Source of the DNA: Methanolacinia paynteri
GTDB taxonomy: Archaea > Halobacteriota > Methanomicrobia > Methanomicrobiales > Methanomicrobiaceae
Assembly (NCBI RefSeq): GCF_000784355.1
Contig: NZ_KN360929.1
Coordinates: 38,299-79,294, forward strand
Direction of reading: 5' to 3'
DNA length: 40,996 nt
Position numbers and translations under genes: made by a program. This document shows, piece by piece, positions 8,940 to 21,440 of this stretch. Every line of letters begins with the position of its first letter. The first letter of the stretch is position 1. The notes under the pieces were generated by a model. That model worked only from the letters and a program-made list of their open reading frames with translations. It had not been told where the DNA came from and did no database searches.

Positions 8940-9365
8940 TTAAGCGTGATCCCGTGCTTCCGAAATCAGGCAACCTCTTTTCGTTTTCCATTCGAAGATC
9001 AGGATCAATGCAATAATGATAAGAAATCCTCCTGCGTCGACGAGCATATATGAAATCCCGGACTCCATCAAAAAGAGCCATATCACGATAAGCCAGATTG
9101 CAAATCCGATTAAAACGCATTTCAGGGCGATCATGCTACGGGCTGCTTCAACGCCCCCGAATTTCCTGTAATACAACAGGTAAACTCCCAGACTGACAAA
9201 GAACGGAATGAGTCCTATGTTTATCCACGAGACCAGGAGGTTATTTGCCATATTCTGACCCGGAAAAAACCATCCTTCGATCAAGATAATGACTGCAAGC
9301 CATATGATGCATAAGAGCAGGCCGAACAGGGGACCAATTATTCTGTCATTCTTGTCCGGTTCCAT
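8940..9365 (-). CDS. Four-helix membrane protein of unknown function
   Basis: 141 aa with four predicted hydrophobic helices (about 12-30, 45-66, 80-102, 110-126) and a charged C-terminal tail ending KRGCLISEARDHA. I recognise no family. The gene has no SD at its ATG. Its upstream region is the duplicated intergenic unit (9420-9969) carrying the conserved motif, so its mRNA may have a leader of about 350 nt. The TPR lipoprotein follows 32 nt downstream and may be co-transcribed. Confidence 0.65.
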   Translation of the reverse strand: MEPDKNDRIIGPLFGLLLCIIWLAVIILIEGWFFPGQNMANNLLVSWINIGLIPFFVSLGVYLLYYRKFGGVEAARSMIALKCVLIGFAIWLIVIWLFLMESGISYMLVDAGGFLIIIALILIFEWKTKRGCLISEARDHA

Positions 9366-9419: not shown

Positions 9420-9969
9420 ATTTGATAAAAACCGGAAAAAGGAGAAAATTTGGGACTTGTGTGATCTTAGGGTGTTTCATAACTCCTTTGTCCGGTCTTC
9501 ATGCGGGGACAAAGGTCCCCGGATTTCTGGCAACCGGCACCAGACACCACAATACGTACGATGCCGGCAAAGATGAAGTTGAATGCGTTTATGGGAGATT
9601 AATAAGGAGATACTCAGGCATCGGATTGATTGATCCGGCTTCTTCTCTTCCAATAAAGTCTCCGCATGGTTGTATTTAGGAAAGGTAAGAATGGAGGATC
9701 ACTCCTCCATCCGGCCCCCAATTGAGAATAGGTGTTAACTCTTTAATAATAACTTTCACCATGCTCTTGAACAATGAAATATAATGATCGGAAAAAAACG
9801 TCATACTGAAGGATTTCAATTATTGATGCTAACAAATAACGATAAATTTCTCTTTATTGAATCAATTGTCTGTAGTATGCCGCAAAATTTTTCTTTGCGC
9901 TGTTGAACTACAGAAAATACCTGCAGCAAACAGTCAATAATTTCTGAGTAATTCCGGAAAAAAAGACGA
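9420..9969 (-). repeat. Duplicated intergenic unit, copy A
   Basis: This non-coding stretch is a diverged copy of 16913-17433 in the same orientation. Shared blocks are GACTTGTGTGATCTT (9454-9468), GATGCCGGCAAAGATGAA (9560-9577), a hairpin ATGGAGG/CCTCCAT (9691-9710), the motif at 9754-9776 with its flanks, and a further ~170 bp up to 9969. An extra hairpin CGGGGAC/GTCCCCG occurs near 9505-9523. The short ORFs inside (for example 9422-9679) are not conserved between the copies. It lies between the pseudogene fragment and the start of the membrane-protein gene at 9365. Confidence 0.7.
9741..9776 (-). promoter_or_regulatory. Conserved motif + TATA, copy A
   Basis: TTTCACCATGCTCTTGAACA (plus strand from 9754) is identical in copies B, C and D. 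Read on the minus strand, GGTGAAA is followed after four bases by TTATTAAAG (9749-9741), a TATA-like box. The predicted start of transcription, near 9719, lies about 10 nt before the hairpin at 9710-9691. Confidence 0.6.
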
Positions 9970-10029
9970 ATAATTATTGAATTAACTCTTTTAAGAACCT
10001 GCAACGATATATCCACCGTCCGGGGCGTG
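9970..10029 (-). pseudogene. 3' remnant of a beta-propeller (PQQ-like) gene
   Basis: The minus strand encodes PDGGYIVAG, matching the C-terminus of the gene at 12620-14323 (PDGGYIVAGVLKEVI). One base is missing after the GCAGG codon region, shifting the frame to an early stop. Nucleotide similarity extends through the stop codon region (compare 12611-12668). The Ile codon differs synonymously (ATC versus ATT), as expected for a once-coding sequence. The rest of the gene is absent: the next gene ends at 10038. Confidence 0.6.
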
Positions 10030-10037
10030 GCAACGTT

Positions 10038-10913
10038 TCATCCTGTGGATAAGATGGTTGTTGCAGACAACAATAGAGAAAGAAAAAAACCTAATACAAA
10101 GACTGAAACTTCAATCCATTTTTCAGGGAATTTCGATCTCGCACAGTAGACAGAACCGGCCGACACCAGCGAAACCGCAAGAACGGGAAGAATCCATAAC
10201 GGATAAATGTTCCGTACACAGGGAAGAGATGCAAGTAACGGCCAGGGCATAATGAAAATGAGTGCCGCAAATATCATAATTACCAAAACCTGAATATCAG
10301 GTATTTTATGAACTCCCGTCTTCAGTTCGTTTAAGGATATGAATATTAATACCGAAAGCGACGCAGCGGCCACAGGAACGGCTAACCAGATAATTCCTGG
10401 GATCAAAAGAAGCAGGGGAATTAAAAGACGCCTGTCATGTTCAAGATTGTCATAATATCTTCTTAGAAATACCAGGAGAGCCATTGCCGAGAGCGAAAGA
10501 ATGAGAGAGCCCGAAAAACTTCCTATGTTCCACAGGCCCGGGTATACGAAATCACACATGTATTGTGTTGTACGGAAATATGCAGGATACGTAAGAGCGA
10601 CTAAGAAAACTGCCGGCAGGACGTCTTTTTTGTCCAGGTATCCCCTGAAGACTATAACAGGCGATATCATTACAAGAACTGCTCCTGCAACACCGACCGC
10701 GGAGCCCGCGAGTCCTCCGGAAGGAAAAACAGGAATTACGAGAAGCAAAAACCCCCCGGCAATCCCTATAAAAAGTTGAATTCTTTCGTTTTTGATCTGT
10801 GTTAATACTAGGTATACAAGAACCGAGAACGCTGCAAAGACAATTGAGGTCAAAATCAGGGAGTTCAGTACTAAATCCAAAATGCCGTTTGAAATCCCTA
10901 CTACAAAATCCAT
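10038..10913 (-). CDS. Polytopic membrane protein of unknown function
   Basis: 291 aa with about eight to nine hydrophobic helices over the whole length and short loops. No motif for a transporter, protease or glycosyltransferase stands out. The ATG follows GGAGTTGAA, a good SD. Its 3' end abuts a fragment of a beta-propeller gene, suggesting a past deletion or recombination junction. It is part of the minus-strand envelope gene island. The size and helix pattern resemble the 377-aa protein at 14473, but I see no clear sequence similarity. Confidence 0.7.
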   Translation of the reverse strand: MDFVVGISNGILDLVLNSLILTSIVFAAFSVLVYLVLTQIKNERIQLFIGIAGGFLLLVIPVFPSGGLAGSAVGVAGAVLVMISPVIVFRGYLDKKDVLPAVFLVALTYPAYFRTTQYMCDFVYPGLWNIGSFSGSLILSLSAMALLVFLRRYYDNLEHDRRLLIPLLLLIPGIIWLAVPVAAASLSVLIFISLNELKTGVHKIPDIQVLVIMIFAALIFIMPWPLLASLPCVRNIYPLWILPVLAVSLVSAGSVYCARSKFPEKWIEVSVFVLGFFLSLLLSATTILSTG

Positions 10914-10963
10914 TTCAACTCCAAAAATTATCAGATCAGGGCCGTGTATAAACGGCTATTGTA

Positions 10964-11266
10964 CTATTTTCCGGCAATATCTTTTGCGAGCTCCTTAATT
11001 TCGGTGATCTCTTCTTTCATCTCGCTAACCGATTCTTTTAACGATTCAAGATCTGATGCAAGTTTCCTGTTTAAATCCTGTGATGTCCGGAAATGTTCCA
11101 CAATTTTTTGTAAGATTATAAGGATCAAAAATATCGGTATAATAAGAGCGATGAAAGAGAAGATCATTCCCCACTGGAATGTAATTGCGCCGTAAAAAAT
11201 TACAATGAGACAAAAAACAGCGAATATTATCAGACTATTCCTTTCCCCTGTTCTTAATTCAGTCAT
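10964..11266 (-). CDS. Small membrane protein with C-terminal coiled coil
   Basis: 100 aa from the ATG at 11264-11266, chosen because GGAGGGG lies 4 nt upstream; the frame is open to 11326. There are two hydrophobic helices (about 12-28 and 33-55), then a charged heptad-like coiled coil (LNRKLASDLESLKESVSEMK and following). It overlaps the end of the upstream lipoprotein gene by 8 nt, indicating translational coupling. The architecture suggests a membrane-bound oligomerisation or scaffold protein; no family is recognised. Confidence 0.72.
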   Translation of the reverse strand: MTELRTGERNSLIIFAVFCLIVIFYGAITFQWGMIFSFIALIIPIFLILIILQKIVEHFRTSQDLNRKLASDLESLKESVSEMKEEITEIKELAKDIAGK

Positions 11267-11873
11267 AAATCCCCTCCGTATTAATAACTGAATAGGAAGG
11301 GTACAGGTATAAGATGTTCGTATCATTGTAGATCATGGCAATTTTTGAATCGGAACTGTTTTCTTGTATATCGAACACATACCACCAGCCTTCGATTTTG
11401 TCTTTTGCTTTGTGAAAACCCTCAGGCAGGGGACCGGAGACAGGTCCCGAGATCCATGATACCGCATCGCTGTAGCCCCTGGCAACAGTCATGTCCTGTT
11501 CGTCGATTACTATGTAAAACGAAAGATTATCCTTCCTAAATTCCAGTTCTCCAAATTTTGTATCATTTCCCGCCTCATCAACAACTTTCGAAACTGAAAC
11601 TATGTTCCAGCCGTCTTCAAGCAGTATGCCTGCACGTGAGTCATCCAGTGCGGCATCAATAACCAAGATCGGATCGACTGAAGAATTTTTCATGCCGGTT
11701 TTATCAATTGCTGAAATATCGACTGAAATCTGCGAACTGCCATTATTGTAAGAGAAAGTTATGTAACTTGTTTCATTTACCGGAATGTCTTCATGATCAT
11801 CAGATGAACCAATACATCCCGCCGATATAACGAGCACCAAAAAGATACTAAATATCGGGAAGGATTTCCTCAT
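11259..11873 (-). CDS. Lipoprotein of unknown function
   Basis: 204 aa. The signal sequence ends in lipobox ISAGC (Cys20), followed by an acidic linker and an extracellular domain of about 170 residues rich in beta-strand-like segments and Asn-X-Ser/Thr sequons. No catalytic residues are recognised. It is translationally coupled to the downstream small coiled-coil membrane protein (8-nt overlap) and preceded by another small membrane-protein gene 13 nt upstream, so 12324 to 10964 is likely one operon. Confidence 0.75.
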   Translation of the reverse strand: MRKSFPIFSIFLVLVISAGCIGSSDDHEDIPVNETSYITFSYNNGSSQISVDISAIDKTGMKNSSVDPILVIDAALDDSRAGILLEDGWNIVSVSKVVDEAGNDTKFGELEFRKDNLSFYIVIDEQDMTVARGYSDAVSWISGPVSGPLPEGFHKAKDKIEGWWYVFDIQENSSDSKIAMIYNDTNILYLYPSYSVINTEGIYD

Positions 11874-11886
11874 TATCGTCTCTCCT

Positions 11887-12324
11887 TTATGAAATTCCCG
11901 ATAAAAAAAATAAAATCCATGCTATGGATAACAGACCTGCCACAGCCTGGTACATTTTTTCTTTCCCTGAAGCCAGAAAACCGATCATTCCGAGGCCGAT
12001 CAGCAGAACCAGATGATACCCGACGAATAAAATTATATTGTCTATGTTAAGAGAGTCCTGAAAAGAGATTGACGAAACTGCAAAGAGGATCAGGAACGCA
12101 TATGAAACGATTCCGGCGAGAGGAGCACGGAACCTGTCGCCTGTTTTGTATCCGTAAAGGAAGGTCCCGACAGGGTATGAAATAATTAAAAAGATCCCGG
12201 CTATTCCTGAGTAAAATGAACCTTTCGAGCTTAATATATAGTATATTAAACAGAAAAAGGCAAAAAAAGAGATGTACGATATGAAAATAATATTTTTTCT
12301 CTCAAAGACTTCCTTACATCTCAT
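11887..12324 (-). CDS. Small polytopic membrane protein of unknown function
   Basis: 145 aa with four or five hydrophobic helices. The first (about 12-32) is Phe-rich. The third to fifth lie at about 67-85, 92-110 and 122-140. The ATG follows GGGAGATAAAGG. It is the first gene of a probable three-gene operon with the lipoprotein and the coiled-coil membrane protein. No family is recognised. Confidence 0.7.
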   Translation of the reverse strand: MRCKEVFERKNIIFISYISFFAFFCLIYYILSSKGSFYSGIAGIFLIISYPVGTFLYGYKTGDRFRAPLAGIVSYAFLILFAVSSISFQDSLNIDNIILFVGYHLVLLIGLGMIGFLASGKEKMYQAVAGLLSIAWILFFLSGIS

Positions 12325-12619
12325 CCTTTATCTCCCGGCAAATGATTTACTCTCCAGCGATAGAAAGGGCCGGCGATTCCTGTTTTCTGCTGCCGGTTTT
12401 CTCTCCGTCGCATTTTAAACTTTATATTGATGGTTTTTAGTCCTGCAGGATATATTTGTTATGACCGGATCATCGAAATGTCAACTTTCTGCCGGGAATC
12501 TGATATGAATCGGGTTTTAGGGCCGGATGAGTTATCCAGGAATTTTTACAGGAAAAAGAAGCTCAAAAACATGAAATATAGACTGAATCAATCAAAACGA
12601 AAAATAAGGAGACATATTA
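12325..12619. other. Intergenic region without a supported gene
   Basis: About 295 nt. A plus-strand open frame (12427-12696) runs into the 3' end of the beta-propeller gene in antisense and has no SD. I see no copy of the conserved motif here. The stretch may hold the promoter of the operon starting at 12324, but no clear TATA box is visible. Confidence 0.5.
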
Positions 12620-14323
12620 TTATATTACCTCTTTTAAGACCCCTGCAACAATATATCCACCGTCCGGGGTTGGATTCAAAGAGAAAACCTGCTTGATACC
12701 CGATACATTCTCCGGGTATTCGATAATGAAAATCTTCTCCGATCCGTCCTCCTCTGCTGCAATTACCTGAATACCCTTTCCTTCAATTGGTCCTGCCTGG
12801 TATTTCATGGAAAGCGTCACCTTGTGGTCATTTGAATTCGTCTGTGACGAGAGGGATTTTTTGATCAGGACATTTCCTTCATTGTCGAGAATATACTTCC
12901 GTTCGCCCTGGCCGCGTAAATTCACCTCGATCGTCCCGTCGTCGAGAGGCTCTATAGAATAGGCTTCTCCGTCGATATTTTCGATGAATCTCGTCTTCCA
13001 GAGATAATTCCCCTGGAGATCGAGAGCAACGATCATGTCACCGCTCTGTTCCGGGTCGGAACATGCCGAATCGGGATCGTAACATCCGACAATACAGTCC
13101 AGCAGAATATATCCTTCCGGCGCCATCACAGCCTCCCTGCAATAGGGGAATTCCGTCTCTTTCTTCTCCCAAAGAGTGTTCCCTTCACTGTCTGCGCAGA
13201 GAATCCACCCGTCGAACTTCTTCCATCCATCGGCACCGTCCTCGTTCACTTCGCCGACCAGGAGATATCCGCCGTTGGGTAAGGCTATGCTGTCAACAAT
13301 ATGTTTCTCGTGAGGGTAGTAACGATGCCACAGTTCGTTCCCGTCTTCGTCAAGCCGGATTACGATTCCGTTGAGCATTATTATGGTATATTCATCTCCT
13401 GTTTGAAGTGCCCTTTTGACATCTTGAAGATCTACTTCGGGATAGGCGGAAACGCTCCGGTTGATATCCCAGATCACGCTGCCGTTGTTGTCGAATTTTA
13501 TCACCCTAAGATTTCGGTTTTTTTCACCGAGAAAGAACATCCCGGCCATTATATAACCGCCATCGTTCGAAGAACATACTTCCTGCGGGTAGTCGCTGTA
13601 ACCGTTTATCACGGTCTGCCATTCGGTGGTTCCGTTTGCATCGACTTTCGATATCAGCGAGTCTCCGGTTATGACAGGGGCGGGAGTGGAAACCGAAGAG
13701 GCCAGCCCGGAAAAAAACATGAAGAACATGGATACCATAAGCGGCCCGAATAGTAAAACAACGGCAAATGCTACCAGCCCGAGAATAAATAACTTTGCCA
13801 CAAGATAATCGTCCTGTTTCTCGTCTTCAGGTTTAGATATTTCAGGTTCGGCCGCAACGGGTCCAGGTCCGAGTCCGGGTTTTTTTCCATCTTTATTGCC
13901 CTCGTCCGAATCCTCCTCCGGTTCATAGAACCGTGCGGCGATGAAGTGGACGACCAGGACAAACAGGAGGATCACCATCAGCACCGCATTAAATATGTTG
14001 AACGAATTCACTCCCCCGCTAAGCTCCCGGACAGTTGCCGACGAATCGATAAACCTGAAACTGAAATATAAGATCGACAAAAGGGCGATCACAGAAACTC
14101 TTCTAGGGTACCTGAAGAGAAGAAAGGCCAGAATACCAGGCACAAGGAAATAAACGAACAACAGAATTCCTGCATCCAAACCGTCCAGCTTCATGCCGAA
14201 GAACCAGGCTTCCCAGTTGAGGATGAATACAAAAAGATACATGAACGAACTTAAAACCAAAACAACCAGCAGAATATAATAAAACGCCTGAACGAGATCT
14301 TTTGCCGTTTTCTTAAGATCCAT
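12620..14323 (-). CDS. Membrane protein with C-terminal PQQ-like beta-propeller domain
   Basis: 567 aa. The N-terminal ~220 residues hold about five to six transmembrane helices, interrupted by an acidic, Pro/Lys-rich cytoplasmic loop (about 130-170). Residues about 225-567 form a beta-propeller-like domain with recurrent blocks such as SKVDANGTTEWQ, NDGGYIMAG, IKFDNNGSVIWD, NGGYLLVGE and PDGGYIVAG (the PQQ/delta-60-like repeat pattern). It is probably an outward-facing propeller anchored in the membrane. The ATG has no SD but lies about 30 nt downstream of a TTATTTAAAAG TATA box that is preceded by the conserved motif (copy B). A decayed fragment of a paralogue remains at 9970-10029. Confidence 0.75.
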   Translation of the reverse strand: MDLKKTAKDLVQAFYYILLVVLVLSSFMYLFVFILNWEAWFFGMKLDGLDAGILLFVYFLVPGILAFLLFRYPRRVSVIALLSILYFSFRFIDSSATVRELSGGVNSFNIFNAVLMVILLFVLVVHFIAARFYEPEEDSDEGNKDGKKPGLGPGPVAAEPEISKPEDEKQDDYLVAKLFILGLVAFAVVLLFGPLMVSMFFMFFSGLASSVSTPAPVITGDSLISKVDANGTTEWQTVINGYSDYPQEVCSSNDGGYIMAGMFFLGEKNRNLRVIKFDNNGSVIWDINRSVSAYPEVDLQDVKRALQTGDEYTIIMLNGIVIRLDEDGNELWHRYYPHEKHIVDSIALPNGGYLLVGEVNEDGADGWKKFDGWILCADSEGNTLWEKKETEFPYCREAVMAPEGYILLDCIVGCYDPDSACSDPEQSGDMIVALDLQGNYLWKTRFIENIDGEAYSIEPLDDGTIEVNLRGQGERKYILDNEGNVLIKKSLSSQTNSNDHKVTLSMKYQAGPIEGKGIQVIAAEEDGSEKIFIIEYPENVSGIKQVFSLNPTPDGGYIVAGVLKEVI

Positions 14324-14349
14324 AATAATGATTGAAAATATGACCTTAA

Positions 14350-14387
14350 CTTTTAAATAACGATTTTCACCATGCTCTTGAACAATG
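14350..14387 (-). promoter_or_regulatory. Conserved motif + TATA, copy B
   Basis: The motif at 14365-14387 is identical to copy A over 23 bases. On the minus strand GGTGAAA, four bases, then TTATTTAAAAG (14360-14350). TATA placement predicts transcription from about 14330 and a nearly leaderless mRNA for the beta-propeller gene (ATG at 14323). This is the copy best tied to a gene. Confidence 0.65.
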
Positions 14388-14472
14388 GATGAAATTCGCC
14401 GGAAAAAAAACCATGAGGGAGATAATAATGCAATTGCAATAAAAAAAAGGATTATTCCAACTAATTTTTTCC

Positions 14473-15606
14473 TTAATCGGAATATTCACGGTTTAATTTT
14501 CTGTTATGTAACTTAAATACCACAAACTGATAGAATATTCCTGCAGCTACTATACCCGACAATGCATTTGTCGCTATTGACAAGAGGGACTGAGGAAGAA
14601 GGTCAGGCTGCATGTATATCCCAGCAGAAATAGCAATACCAGCGACGGCGATTAGCACCCCTGCTCCCAAAACAACTCCGAAAATCGTGAGATTATGCAG
14701 TTTATCATTTATTTTCTGCATGAAATAAGGTAAGGGGACAAGCATTAAAAGTGCCATAAAGACAAGTGGAAAGACCCATATAGGGAAATATTGACCGACA
14801 TCAGGTCCAATTGCTGCAAGATATGAACCGATGAACTCACAAAAGAGCCCCATTACGGCCAGGCCGGAAGCCAGGACAATCCGGTTGCCGGGGGCCGAAA
14901 ATTTTTCTAAGAGGGGCAGGAATATGACGGCATAAACTGCAACTGCGGTTTGATATGTAAGAAAAATCACTGAAAAAGCCATAACAACGGTGAAAATTAC
15001 ACGATATGGCCAGGATTCAAACTGAACAAGAATTTCTGAGAAAACATAGAAATATCCAAAAATTGCAAATGCGATCGCTATCGATGCAATAAATGGGGAG
15101 GTTGCAGGAAACAGCCAAGGAATGCTAATATTACTGCCCGGTGTCATCATAACCGAGAAGATATATGTATAATGTAAAATTGTAGTCGCCATTAGTGTAA
15201 ATAAAAGAAGCAGATATCTCCACATTTTCGCAAATTTAATATTAGGGAGAAGGATTAAGGCAGGAATCAAACCCCCGATAAGAATAGAAATGTATTCCAA
15301 AACTCCTGAAAGATCGTTCCTGAACATGTACCACGTCCCGTAGGGTCCTCCTGGAATGAAAAGATCAGGAAACCACACCTCCATAAAATTTTGAACAAGC
15401 CAGGCACAAACCGAAAATAACAAGCCGGAAATTATCAGGACAAAATAAAGGGATTTACGGGACTTCATCTGCGAAAGCAGGATAAATAATCCCACTGCAA
15501 TCACCGCACCTGCCACAAAGACATCTGCAGCAATTACTAAGGACGGGACAGGGACGTTTATGGCATTTAGCTTTCCATCAAACACTTGGTTTATTAAAGA
15601 GTACAT
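14473..15606 (-). CDS. Large polytopic membrane protein of unknown function
   Basis: 377 aa with about ten hydrophobic helices throughout and a short basic C-terminal tail (HNRKLNREYSD). There are a few charged residues in the helices but no recognised transporter or enzyme signature. The ATG is preceded by GGAGACAGAATTAT. It lies 60 nt downstream of the secreted cysteine-protease gene on the same strand, so co-expression is likely; it could help export or processing of that protein, but nothing in the sequence proves this. Confidence 0.7.
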   Translation of the reverse strand: MYSLINQVFDGKLNAINVPVPSLVIAADVFVAGAVIAVGLFILLSQMKSRKSLYFVLIISGLLFSVCAWLVQNFMEVWFPDLFIPGGPYGTWYMFRNDLSGVLEYISILIGGLIPALILLPNIKFAKMWRYLLLLFTLMATTILHYTYIFSVMMTPGSNISIPWLFPATSPFIASIAIAFAIFGYFYVFSEILVQFESWPYRVIFTVVMAFSVIFLTYQTAVAVYAVIFLPLLEKFSAPGNRIVLASGLAVMGLFCEFIGSYLAAIGPDVGQYFPIWVFPLVFMALLMLVPLPYFMQKINDKLHNLTIFGVVLGAGVLIAVAGIAISAGIYMQPDLLPQSLLSIATNALSGIVAAGIFYQFVVFKLHNRKLNREYSD

Positions 15607-15666
15607 ATAATTCTGTCTCCATGAGATTAAATAAACCCATAAAAAATATAATGGAATCTCCCGGCT

Positions 15667-16887
15667 TTAGGGCCGAATATACACAGGGTATATAGAATTC
15701 CAATTTCCAAAGGCGATATACCTTGTATCTGATGTTGACCAGCCGTCATTGATCTCTATGGCATCAAATGAACCATCAGCCCACCCGACAGCCGCGACGG
15801 AATGATTACCATATGCTGTTGAACTACCTATTGCAGTTCCGGCTCCATGCATAGCAAGATGCATCGGACGATCTGCCGTGACCTCTGATTTAACTTCTGA
15901 GAAATAGAAACCCCAGCCATCAGGTACAGCATCTATATCATATCCATAATCATCGCATACACTTTCTATACCCGGCTCGATATTAGAATCATATGTCCCA
16001 TTAACAGGGTCCGTATCCATTGCAGAGTATAACTCAAGGATTAAAGTGTCTCCATTTGATGGGAAATTAGGATAACCATTATTTCGCCAATAGGATAAAA
16101 TCATACCTGAAGCAGTAGGGGCACATGAATTAGTATAGCCTGTTGGCTGGTCAAAGAGAGGAACCCAATATATCGTATCGGCTCCGCGAACTGAAGTAGG
16201 GACTATTGTTCCTCTGCTTACAAGTCCAATGTTTTCATCGACAATCGTCCATTCATCCTCAACTGAAATTGCATCAGATTCTGATTTTCCATTAGTTGAG
16301 ACCATGGAAGTATTTTCATCTTTTAGATCTACAACAGCATCGTTAAAGAGATCAACAATAACATCCTGCTTTGTATTTTTAAGTGGATCTCCAAATGTAT
16401 ATTGGGCATAATAGAATGTCGCTCCAAGATAGAGATATTTTATAGAATTCAGTTTATAATTAGTGTCTCCAATAGATTTCTCTGCACTGAGTTGTGCATT
16501 TTCTTTTGTTTTTCGGGGGATAATGTCCCCTTTCCCAAATTCCAAAATTGGATAATTATCTTTGTTTCCAGAAACTAGAATGAATCCTAAATAATCTCCA
16601 CCTTTTATAATAGAGAATGAATACGCGGCAATATTTCCATCGAGATCATAAAAAGTCAGATCAGATTCAACATTAGCCCCACTCCATTCAGAAAATTCAC
16701 TTATACCTTGAGATACATCATTAAGTTGTAATTGCGCTACCTTTTCAGCATAATCCGATGTAATTAAAGTACTGTCCTTTTGTTCATTTACAGAACTACT
16801 AGCACTAACAGCCGGAACGAAAATCGCTCCTGCGAGTGCCAATACTAAAAACAGGCTTAAGGCCTGCATACCTACAATTCGTTTCAT
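15667..16887 (-). CDS. Secreted C10/C39-like cysteine protease
   Basis: 406 aa from the ATG at 16885-16887, chosen because AGGTGA lies just upstream; the frame also contains an ATG at 16905. A signal peptide is cleaved near VSA-S. Numbering from the upstream ATG, residues about 50-200 resemble a streptopain-type propeptide (LGFILVSGNKDNYPILEFGKG region), and residues about 240-410 a papain-like core with Cys261 in NSCAPTASGM, His368 in GNHSVAAVGW and the INDGW segment. Together these suggest a secreted, self-processed protease. The substrate is unknown. The mRNA may carry a leader of about 310 nt containing the duplicated unit (copy C). Its neighbours are membrane proteins of unknown role. 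Confidence 0.8.
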   Translation of the reverse strand: MKRIVGMQALSLFLVLALAGAIFVPAVSASSSVNEQKDSTLITSDYAEKVAQLQLNDVSQGISEFSEWSGANVESDLTFYDLDGNIAAYSFSIIKGGDYLGFILVSGNKDNYPILEFGKGDIIPRKTKENAQLSAEKSIGDTNYKLNSIKYLYLGATFYYAQYTFGDPLKNTKQDVIVDLFNDAVVDLKDENTSMVSTNGKSESDAISVEDEWTIVDENIGLVSRGTIVPTSVRGADTIYWVPLFDQPTGYTNSCAPTASGMILSYWRNNGYPNFPSNGDTLILELYSAMDTDPVNGTYDSNIEPGIESVCDDYGYDIDAVPDGWGFYFSEVKSEVTADRPMHLAMHGAGTAIGSSTAYGNHSVAAVGWADGSFDAIEINDGWSTSDTRYIAFGNWNSIYPVYIRP

Positions 16888-16912
16888 TTTTTCACCTACA
16901 TTCATAAATTAG

Positions 16913-17433
16913 AACCCGAAAAAAAGAAGAAAATTGGACTTGTGTGATCTTGTGGTTTCCTGAGACTTCTTCGAGATTCCGGGTTCAGGTGGGGGATTAA
17001 TCCCTGAACAGAACAACCAGTATGCAAACCTTAATCTGCATTGATGTCGACAAAGATGAATGCCGGTCTTATTTGCCGGCGGACGATCGGGGAGAGAAAG
17101 GAACGAAGTTGACTCCTCTGACTTTTCTTCCCTAATGTCTTCAACTGGTTAATAATCCAGGAAAGGTTCGGGTGGAAGATCACTCCTCCACCTTAGACCC
17201 CCAATTGAAAATGGAGCTAGCTCTTTAATAAAAACTTTCACCATGCTCTTGAACAATGAAATATAATGATCAAAGAAAACGTCATTCTGAAGTATTTCAA
17301 TTTTTGATATTATGTATAACGATAAATATCTCTTTATTGCATCAATAAACAACCATATTCCATAGAATTTTCTTCGCGCTTTCAACCTGAAAAGTATTAC
17401 CTGCAGGAAATAATTCAATTCAAGTAATTAATT
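16913..17433 (-). repeat. Duplicated intergenic unit, copy C
   Basis: Diverged copy of 9420-9969 in the same orientation. Shared blocks are GACTTGTGTGATCTT (16937-16951), GATGTCGACAAAGATGAA (17043-17060), hairpin GGTGGA/TCCACC (17171-17192), motif plus TATA (17223-17258) and about 170 bp beyond it. In the hairpin, one A-T pair of copy A is replaced by G-C here, while the loop side GATCACTCCTCCA is unchanged. A minus-strand open frame (17149-17418) crosses the unit but is broken by an indel in copy A. Confidence 0.7.
17223..17258 (-). promoter_or_regulatory. Conserved motif + TATA, copy C
   Basis: The motif at 17236-17258 is identical to copies A and B. Minus-strand order: GGTGAAA (17242-17236), four bases, TTATTAAAG (17231-17223). 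The predicted start of transcription is near 17201, about 9 nt before the hairpin at 17192-17171, and about 310 nt before the protease start codon. Confidence 0.6.
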
Positions 17434-18174
17434 TTAGACAGAAAAACCGTAATTTTTCCTCATTTCTTCGGGAAGATTTTCAACTATGATCCTCTCAAGT
17501 CCCGATCTGATATAATAATGCCTCGCAGTCCCGGATTTCCTGCAGGAAAGGAGACCAGCACTTTCAATTTTGCCGACATGCCAGCTCACTGCACTTTTTG
17601 AGATCCCCAGTTCGTCTTTCAGATCTACGTTTCTTATGCCCGGATATTTCGTTATGAGTGCAAGAATCTTCAGCTGCGTAGGATTATGGCTCATGCTGAT
17701 GATCTTTCTTTCAAGTCCGGAGAATGTGCCGTGATTGGGAAATACTCTCCTCGAATTATCGGTATTCTCTATGACAATGTAGTCCCCCTGGCTGAGGCGT
17801 TTTATATGATAGCGAAGACTGTCGCGCTTGATATCCATCGCCGATGCGATCTCTTCGAAACATCTCCCGGGATTTTCGCAGACGTACTCCAGTATCTCCT
17901 TTCTCTTTTTATTATCGAGAATCGACCCGATCCTTCCCGCAATAGGAGGGAAAAACTTAATTGCGGCTAAAAATCCACCGATTAGAGCAAGGATAAAGGA
18001 TATTTTGATCCACATAGGTAAATCCTGAAAGGAATTGAAACCCTTTGCACCTGAATCATAAAAATATTGGTTATCATCATCACCGAAGGTTGTACTATAT
18101 TCACATGAACCTGGAAATACACAATATATAAACAATAAAATTATGATTAGGCATACCTTGCGGCAAATTTTCAT
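17434..18174 (-). CDS. Membrane-anchored double winged-helix regulator
   Basis: 246 aa. An N-terminal signal/anchor (about 5-23), a short outer segment, and a second transmembrane helix (about 55-75) place the rest in the cytoplasm. Residues about 85-145 are one winged helix (KRKEILEYVCENPGRCFEEI...) and about 165-225 a second, MarR/ArsR-like one (PTQLKILALITKYPGI, LGISKSAVSWHVGKIESAGL). Proteins of this layout occur in methanogens as putative membrane-bound transcription regulators. It is the only regulator inside the envelope island that carries five copies of the conserved motif, so it is a natural candidate to bind it; this is inference. There is no sensor domain of note beyond the short outer segment. 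Confidence 0.82.
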   Translation of the reverse strand: MKICRKVCLIIILLFIYCVFPGSCEYSTTFGDDDNQYFYDSGAKGFNSFQDLPMWIKISFILALIGGFLAAIKFFPPIAGRIGSILDNKKRKEILEYVCENPGRCFEEIASAMDIKRDSLRYHIKRLSQGDYIVIENTDNSRRVFPNHGTFSGLERKIISMSHNPTQLKILALITKYPGIRNVDLKDELGISKSAVSWHVGKIESAGLLSCRKSGTARHYYIRSGLERIIVENLPEEMRKNYGFSV

Positions 18175-18302
18175 ATAATTATTTTCATCGATTCTAGAAT
18201 ATAATAATCTTATGTAGTTTAAGATAAATTTTCCAGAAAATGCACATAATAAGATTAGGAAGAGATCCCTTCCAGAAAGAGAGAATCTTATTAAAAAAAT
18301 AA

Positions 18303-18752
18303 TTAAATGGTATAGCTTTGTGTTCCTGTCACGCTATATCCATAGATCTCGTAATACCATCTTCCTTCGGCAATACCATCGCCATTATTAATATTCACCG
18401 AAATATTTCCATCAATAATTCCATCAGAACCATCATAGTAATAGCCGAAGGTATGTTGATCAGGTGAATAGACCATCAATCTCAACGAATTAGAAGTGTC
18501 TCCCCAATGTAGGCGAACACGAAGCTGCGTATAATAACCACTAATATCGGCGTAAGCCCAATCAGTTTCACCCTGCGTTATGGTGCCGGACACGGTCTTT
18601 ACTCCAACATTGCCTTCAACGATCTTGGGAATAGTTACGGTATAACCACCCATATCGATCTTTTCTGCGTCAAAGAGATTCATCGATGCCGAAGCACACG
18701 ATACGAGCATAGCCAAAGCTATCGCTATTAGAAAAATTCCAAATTTTTTCAT
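18303..18752 (-). CDS. Small secreted protein (PPC-like beta domain)
   Basis: 149 aa from the ATG at 18750-18752, preferred over the ATG at 18764 because GGTGA lies 5 nt before it. A signal peptide ending CASAS is followed by about 125 residues with the pattern TDWAYADISGYYTQLRVRLHW ... LRLMVYSPDQ ... GRWYYEIYGYSVTGTQSYTI. This is reminiscent of the bacterial pre-peptidase C-terminal (PPC) beta-sandwich that often accompanies secreted proteases. Here it stands alone and might act with the nearby secreted cysteine protease; that link is speculative. Motif copy D lies about 65 nt upstream of the start. Confidence 0.72.
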   Translation of the reverse strand: MKKFGIFLIAIALAMLVSCASASMNLFDAEKIDMGGYTVTIPKIVEGNVGVKTVSGTITQGETDWAYADISGYYTQLRVRLHWGDTSNSLRLMVYSPDQHTFGYYYDGSDGIIDGNISVNINNGDGIAEGRWYYEIYGYSVTGTQSYTI

Positions 18753-18800
18753 TGTTTTCACCATAGACCCCGGAGGGCCTATAATTGATAATATGAAAAA

Positions 18801-18839
18801 ATGAGATGAAAAATACTTTCACCATGCTCTTGAACAATG
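18801..18839 (-). promoter_or_regulatory. Conserved motif, copy D
   Basis: The motif at 18817-18839 is identical to copies A-C. On the minus strand GGTGAAA is followed after four bases by TTTTCATC, a weaker TATA-like stretch. It is upstream of the small secreted-protein gene; predicted transcription from about 18780 would leave a short leader carrying the GGTGA ribosome site. Confidence 0.55.
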
Positions 18840-18923
18840 AGCCCTTTGTTCAACCTGACAGTGATAAAATTTATATAAAACATACCCATCTCGCGAATAA
18901 ATACAGATGTTATTGTAATATTC

Positions 18924-18945
18924 TTTCACCATGCCCTTGAACAAT
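18924..18945 (-). promoter_or_regulatory. Conserved motif, diverged copy E
   Basis: This copy differs from the others by one T-to-C change in the core and loses the final ATG match. It lies 85 nt upstream of copy D in the same orientation. On the minus strand GGTGAAA is followed by four bases and ATTACAATAAC. TTTATATAAA, a symmetric TATA-like box, lies between copies E and D at 18868-18877. Copy E may be a second binding site or a decaying one. Confidence 0.5.
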
Positions 18946-21248: not shown

Positions 21249-21440
21249 TGGGGTCGGTGAGATTTGAACTCACGATCGACGGGTCTCTCCGAACATGCGT
21301 TTGAGCGCGATTAAGAGAAATCAAGGTTTTGCATCAGCGCTCCAACGGATCATCACTAGGTTTCCCTTCAGCAGACCCATTGTTCATCATACGCAAAGAC
21401 CGCTGGAGCCCGTCGCCATGCCGGACTAGGCCACGACCCC
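21249..21440 (-). tRNA. tRNA-Trp(CCA) with 118-nt intron
   Basis: Exon 1 is 21440-21403 and exon 2 is 21284-21249. Acceptor GGGGTCG pairs with CGACCCC; the discriminator is A. Anticodon stem ACGGG/CCCGT encloses loop C-T-CCA-G-A with anticodon at 21406-21404. The intron (21402-21285) lies between positions 37 and 38, the canonical archaeal site. The bulge-helix-bulge is visible: exon helix ACGGG/CCCGT, bulge AGA, central helix CTCC/GGAG, bulge AGC, and then an intron helix (TGCGT/ACGCA). Mature length is 74 nt. No CCA is encoded. Confidence 0.93.
21285..21402 (-). ncRNA. Intron-encoded box C/D guide RNA for tRNA-Trp
   Basis: Reading the intron on the minus strand gives box C ATGATGA (21390-21384), D' CTGA (21371-21368), C' GTGATGA (21356-21350) and D CTGA (21337-21334). 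The D guide CCGTTGGAGCG pairs with the anticodon region; the fifth base upstream of D faces C34. The D' guide ATGGGTCTG pairs with CAG/ACCCGT across the exon junction; its fifth base faces C39. The known function of this class is 2'-O-methylation by fibrillarin with L7Ae and Nop5. Haloferax tRNA-Trp introns do the same at C34 and U39. Confidence 0.88.

Follow-up and report, generated by a model that had tools for sequence, protein, structure and literature searches.

Among the described archaeal systems, the closest are ArnR and ArnR1 of Sulfolobus acidocaldarius, two membrane-bound one-component activators whose boxes are located upstream of the transcription factor B recognition element (BRE) and the TATA box (PMC6396743). 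A survey of transmembrane transcription regulators reports that Methanomicrobia are enriched in such proteins (Demey et al. 2023, PMC10269533), and EarA of Methanococcus, as cited in PMC6396743, is a euryarchaeal winged-helix protein that activates the archaellum genes and has several short TACATA promoter sites. Here, we analyzed a stretch of 40,996 nucleotides (nt) of Methanolacinia paynteri DNA (contig NZ_KN360929.1, positions 38,299 to 79,294), referred to as the window, in which five copies of a box, TGTTCAAGAGCATGGTGAAA on the minus strand, precede genes of secreted and membrane proteins, among them the operon of a predicted membrane-anchored winged-helix protein (17434-18174). We propose, at a rough probability of 0.72, that the box functions as an operator and not as a core promoter element and that it would be bound by this protein, an assignment based on sequence comparison.

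Similar to ArnR, the protein combines a DNA-binding part and a membrane anchor in a single polypeptide, and defined boxes are located upstream of BRE/TATA with more than one copy at a key promoter, two at flaB in the case of ArnR and two at the regulator operon here. However, ArnR starts with an N-terminal helix-turn-helix domain, followed by a HAMP-like part and then the membrane anchor, whereas here the membrane part is N-terminal and two winged helices are C-terminal. ArnR boxes have the sequence TCGAC-N5-GTCGA and lie at about -43 to -84, while the box described here lacks such an inverted repeat and abuts the TATA box; thus, neither layout nor box is that of the ArnR family. The targets differ as well, being archaellum and pilus genes for ArnR and, in the present case, secreted proteins that have a leader and a signal peptide in common. 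With the surveyed class the protein shares the defining feature of a transmembrane one-component transcription regulator, a single polypeptide with both a transmembrane segment and a DNA-binding domain; the available text of the survey names no targets or boxes of the methanogen members, and the comparison made here assigns both, along with a partner in the operon and parallel systems of paralogues. EarA, as cited, is likewise a winged-helix protein, and TACATA occurs within some box copies of related genera; in contrast, the present box comprises 20 bases and has no TACATA in the window's genus (GAGCATGG), none of the window boxes has the TACATA promoter repeats, and the regulator possesses a membrane anchor and two winged helices. 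Transmembrane one-component regulators are an already known class, and the unusual features here are the pairing with a secreted protein and the portable module of leader and signal peptide. We found no description of the box, the leader or the regulon in the open-access literature. Many membrane-anchored DNA-binding proteins are encoded in archaeal genomes, and target boxes are known for very few of them.

The box in the window and in related genomes

The five copies of the box compare with 0.01 expected from dinucleotide shuffles. Written on the plus strand, the motif TTTCACCATGCTCTTGAACA occurs four times exactly and once with a single mismatch, always in the same orientation, and copies A to D are identical over 23 bases (Table 1). 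Exactly four bases separate GGTGAAA from the downstream TTATTAAAG or TTATTTAAAAG in copies A, B and C, and the box lies at about -52 to -33 relative to the predicted transcription start. The number and positions of the copies as well as their fixed distance to a TATA box had been proposed in the initial annotation of the window and were found as described there. The same annotation had pointed out a dyad, TTCA-N9-TGAA, which is indeed present in this genus but has disappeared from the box of related genera, GTTCAAGNACATAGTGAGA; dyad symmetry was thus rejected as a defining feature or as the logic of the binding site.

The copies had also been regarded as a local cluster, and a genome-wide motif search and a comparison with related genomes had been suggested as checks. 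In the 2.79-Mb genome to which the window belongs (G000), 13 copies with at most one mismatch are spread over seven contigs, compared to none in a reversed control, so that the cluster is not local; all 13 sites are intergenic, and each points at a gene. The sister species G001, which we take to be Methanolacinia petrolearia, has 13 copies as well. Over 27 sites, the 20-base core is nearly invariant, the flanks remain below about 1.3 bits, and the TATA box starts at +24. A search of 28 genomes of the family for a diverged form of the box, GTTCARNNNYATRGTGARA, gave exact counts of 13 copies in G000, 12 in G001, 5 in G003, 7 in G009, 10 in G012 (Methanoplanus limicola DSM 2279), 2 in G014 and 1 in G007, and none in the 21 other genomes or in the reversed controls.

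The candidate regulator and its paralogues

The protein encoded at 17434-18174 has two hydrophobic segments (residues 1-27 and 51-80) and scores above the Pfam cut-offs for HTH_24, HTH_20 and HTH_HVO_0163_N. Its AlphaFold2 (AF2) model shows a helix at residues 54-100 followed by two winged helices, and the protein is probably a transmembrane one-component regulator whose short outer loop and transmembrane helix would be followed by the two winged-helix domains on the cytoplasmic side. The first gene of its operon encodes a small secreted protein with a predicted beta-sandwich (AF2 pLDDT 78) of the type found in subtilase C-domains and collagen-binding domains, the best Foldseek matches being the C-domain of Tk-SP from Thermococcus (5e-5) and ColH CBD3 (7e-4), which are PPC-like themselves. 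Related small proteins with 25-70% identity similarly consist of a signal peptide and a predicted beta-sandwich; the gathering score of PF04151 (PPC) was missed by these proteins, only one of ten members giving an E-value of 0.0066. The small PPC-like protein is probably the partner or the sensor of the regulator, a role as sensor or ligand being a guess.

Close full-length orthologues of the candidate regulator (46-80% identity) occur in exactly G000, G001, G003, G009 and G012, and these are the five among the 28 genomes that have at least five boxes; in G014, a regulator fragment with stop codons was found. As the box stands in front of secreted-protein genes and of the regulator gene and co-occurs with the latter across species, the protein probably senses the outside and switches this set of genes on. 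In all five genomes holding both, two boxes, 107-108 bp apart, precede the small-protein/regulator operon, which suggests that the regulator should regulate itself, and among the regulator paralogues of G000 the box stands only before this operon. Each genome encodes several membrane winged-helix paralogues (nine matches in G000), and the box might accordingly be an operator read by another, soluble DNA-binding protein or by an alternative transcription factor B (TFB), the membrane protein being a mere neighbour. We regard this as distinctly unlikely: the doubled box before this very operon argues against another reader, a constrained element of 20 bases exceeds a BRE in length, and three paralogous operons have distinct boxes which they share with adjacent secreted-protein genes.

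The first of these parallel systems (class II) is represented in M. limicola by the box CTTGTTGGAGACTCTGGACAGAAATTA, one copy of which stands before a paralogous small-protein/regulator operon; six exact copies precede leader/signal-peptide genes of the adjacent cluster, and none occurs elsewhere in the five genomes searched. The class IV box, TTCGATGATTCGGTCACAA (G001 and G014), lies before a regulator operon, its divergent signal-peptide neighbour and other leader genes. The class VI box, TTTGACGATTTGGACATAA, precedes the orthologous operon in every one of the five genomes that have this operon; inspection of three of them (G000, G001 and G012) showed a further copy, back-to-back with the first and directed at a divergent signal-peptide gene. 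No other observation argues as strongly for each regulator reading the box before its own operon as this repeated pairing in paralogues. It might be speculated, albeit tentatively, that the Methanomicrobiaceae possess a family of paralogous outside-in switches, each consisting of a secreted PPC-like protein and a membrane-anchored double winged-helix regulator with its own box, and each driving secreted effectors in an exchangeable promoter/leader/signal-peptide cassette; new enzymes or toxins would be recruited by leader recombination, and the small secreted protein would be the sensor or the sensed signal. In G001, two further leader/signal-peptide genes (locus L041, 11322 and 16890) lie behind another shared box, TGTGTAGACGATCGTKCAAGAARAAATA.

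Table 1. Box copies, leader elements and genes in the window.
Feature	Position	Strand	Remarks
Box copy A	9754..9773	-	exact match; TATA TTATTAAAG 4 bases downstream at 9741-9749
Box copy B	14365..14384	-	61 nt ahead of the propeller-like membrane protein start; TATA TTATTTAAAAG at 14350-14360
Box copy C	17236..17255	-	TATA TTATTAAAG at 17223-17231
Box copy D	18817..18836	-	72 nt ahead of the small secreted protein gene; no clear TATA
Box copy E	18924..18943	-	1 mismatch; 107 bp upstream of D
Candidate regulator	17434..18174	-	N-terminal hydrophobic helix, short outer loop, transmembrane helix, two winged-helix domains (Pfam, hydropathy, AF2)
Small secreted protein	18303..18764	-	first gene of regulator operon; PPC-like beta-sandwich
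Target, 567-residue membrane protein	12620..14323	-	weak beta-propeller similarity (weak Pfam matches only)
Target, C39-like peptidase	15667..16887	-	PF13529, 1.4e-9; shared signal peptide MKRIVGMQALSLFLVLALAGAIFVPAVSA
141-residue membrane protein	8940-9365		next gene after copy A leader; about four hydrophobic segments
Leader element 1 behind copy A	9668..9723	-	hairpin (fold); gene after it encodes the 141-residue membrane protein
Leader element 1 behind copy C	17158..17202	-	fold, covariation in 29 homologues; predicted mRNA 5' end
Leader element 2 behind copy C	17015..17067	-	conserved ACCGGCAT...GATTAAGGTTTGCAT

Target genes and the leader module

Secreted or membrane proteins make up the main part of the targets. 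Of the 13 sites in G000, eight have more in common than the box, namely a leader of about 230-350 nt, and seven of these leaders run into a common type of signal peptide, MKTKFGMRALGLLLVVALAGAIFVPVVSA, the one without being copy A. A related leader with a different signal peptide is found at locus L014, and other sites (B, D, E, L009_8556) have the box alone. Most targets thus share a conserved unit of box, TATA box, 5' mRNA hairpin, a second leader element, ribosome-binding site and signal peptide. Behind it follow unrelated mature proteins, comprising the C39-like peptidase of the window, a transglutaminase-like protein (L013), M12-like peptidases (L042, L138), a caspase/CHAT-like protein (L138 and its L013 homologue) and several proteins without a known family. 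For the C39 gene, the longest open reading frame starts at 16905, but the ATG with AGGTGA ahead of it is at 16887. Of the regulon envisaged in the initial annotation, the gene types came out as described, including a propeller-like protein, a protease (C39), a small secreted protein and a membrane protein with about four segments, and its nominee as regulator is backed by the co-occurrence of orthologue and box (five of 28 genomes), the duplicated operon box and the paralogous operons with their own boxes; its members, taken there as an envelope regulon, are better described as mainly secreted proteins, and the present follow-up adds the conserved mRNA leader, the signal peptide common to the targets, the reassortment of modules and the regulons that run in parallel.

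Leader element 1 is a nested hairpin that closely follows the predicted start. Among 29 homologues, which represent five genera, pairing is found in 81% of the alignment cells compared to 75% in shuffles, and two-sided changes were counted in 32 cells compared to 13.8 +/- 3.6 in shuffles, none of 500 shuffles reaching as high and all slid controls being lower. Such hairpins (e.g. window 17158-17202) contain GGAGUGAUC, which lacks a single base compared to the perfect ribosome-binding sequence of archaea, GGAGGUGAUC, and have a GUGA (GNRA) loop; a function as ribosome standby or decoy is possible. Element 2, with the pattern ACCGGCAT...GATTAAGGTTTGCATGCCGGT, lies upstream of the ribosome-binding site. 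A sequence model detected 10 copies in G000, 13 in G001, 19 in G012 and 8 in G014, some of them behind other promoters, and a scan of genome contigs gave matches in two metagenome-assembled genomes only. RNAalifold predicted no structure, and 88% of cells retain the inverted repeat of the element, two-sided changes being nearly absent; element 2 is therefore called a conserved sequence only, and a structured RNA was rejected. A translated upstream peptide (QIKVCMPV) was dismissed as well, since neither its start codons nor its frame relative to the gene is conserved, even though the frame itself is frequently open. At the gathering score, no Rfam family matched the leaders in the window, L009, L011 and L013.

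The 363-nt leader of copy C is 99% identical to two leaders of G001; by BLASTP, the mature proteins behind these two resemble neither one another nor the C39 protein. Conversely, one of these two proteins is 73% identical to the L011 protein of G000, while their leaders are only 68% identical; within one genome, leaders are up to 98% identical. Leaders of 98-99% identity ahead of non-homologous mature proteins indicate that 5' modules and mature proteins have recombined or that leaders have been homogenised by conversion. Reading these sequences in the first way, the 5' module is portable and has been joined to unrelated mature proteins, homogenisation being the alternative. The homology of the long upstream regions in which many of the box copies reside raises the question of whether the repeats are mere remnants of duplication or gene conversion that lack regulatory meaning. 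This appears highly improbable, as copies B, D, E, L009_8556 and others have the box alone, without the leader, conservation is far higher in the core than in the flanks, box divergence between genera tracks the orthologous regulators, and related modules hold different boxes at the same place. That the motif is the end of a transposon or another mobile element, an objection named in the initial annotation and suggested by the repetition of the motif and the reassortment of the 5' modules, is hardly credible: the copies are intergenic, at a fixed place relative to the TATA box and pointing at the gene in one orientation per target. There is no partner inverted end, an association with transposases was not seen, and viral contigs gave no match to the leader-element pattern.

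Several rearrangements were observed at these loci. In G001, a partial second regulator copy (residues 130-246, 92% identical) precedes a further leader copy at L037, about 11363-11713 (G001:C1:826862-827212); this tandem duplication spans the regulator end and the leader and thus shows how modules multiply. A tandem duplication of about 7 kb occurs in M. limicola (L066, G012:C1:636000-655900), where one regulator copy has an in-frame stop and the L067 copy is intact. The same species has an array of leader/signal-peptide genes for M12-like metallopeptidases (L138, G012:C1:2847000-2866000), along which two different boxes alternate. The secreted target at L014 (10038-10712) has a very cysteine-rich C-terminus (CVISAAACIVGCATCAGLC...CCDHKCP) resembling a bacteriocin-type peptide, without a family match; a Halocin-C8-like bacteriocin is not claimed, as no NCBIfam match was obtained even at E<=10.

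Proposed mode of action

We hypothesize that, in the presence of an outside signal, the membrane-anchored regulator at the box would contact the TATA-binding protein and TFB, turn on the genome-wide set of mainly secreted proteins and, through the two boxes, its own operon; the hairpin at the 5' end of the mRNA would probably stabilise the message or aid its translation. The position just upstream of the TATA box is a common site of archaeal activators. With the box ending four bases before the TATA box, and by analogy to ArnR, we consider activation, combined with autoregulation, the more likely mode, although with clearly less confidence than we have in the assignment of the box. Alternatively, the regulator might bind the box as a repressor, keeping the secreted-protein genes off until the signal releases it: the box adjoins the TATA box, where TFB could be blocked, and the domains match ArsR/SmtB and MarR-type families, many of which are repressors. 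Repression is nevertheless considered somewhat unlikely, as the box overlaps neither the TATA box nor the predicted start and ArnR, which is analogous and the best-studied among membrane-bound regulators of archaea, acts as an activator with its boxes upstream of BRE/TATA (PMC6396743).

Some observations weigh against the assignment of the box to the candidate regulator and against the system as drawn here. Foldseek matched the regulator to single winged-helix domains only, copies D and E lack a good TATA box at the standard four-base spacing, and copy A has the leader but misses the usual signal-peptide gene. G007 and G014 keep one and two boxes, respectively, without an intact close orthologue of the regulator, and the 28 genomes of the cross-genus sample are phylogenetically clustered. 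In addition, element 2 is conserved in sequence and shows little covariation. As the box, its targets, the operon partner and three parallel systems are readable from the sequence, binding by the regulator and the nature of the signal are testable in culturable methanogens, and the exchangeable promoter/leader/signal-peptide module illustrates a way in which unrelated secreted proteins may come under a single control circuit in archaea.

Elsewhere in the window, a C/D box snoRNA, sR3 (RF01133, 60.8 bits), is located at 21332-21394 on the minus strand and a tRNA gene (RF00005) at 1372-1443 on the plus strand.

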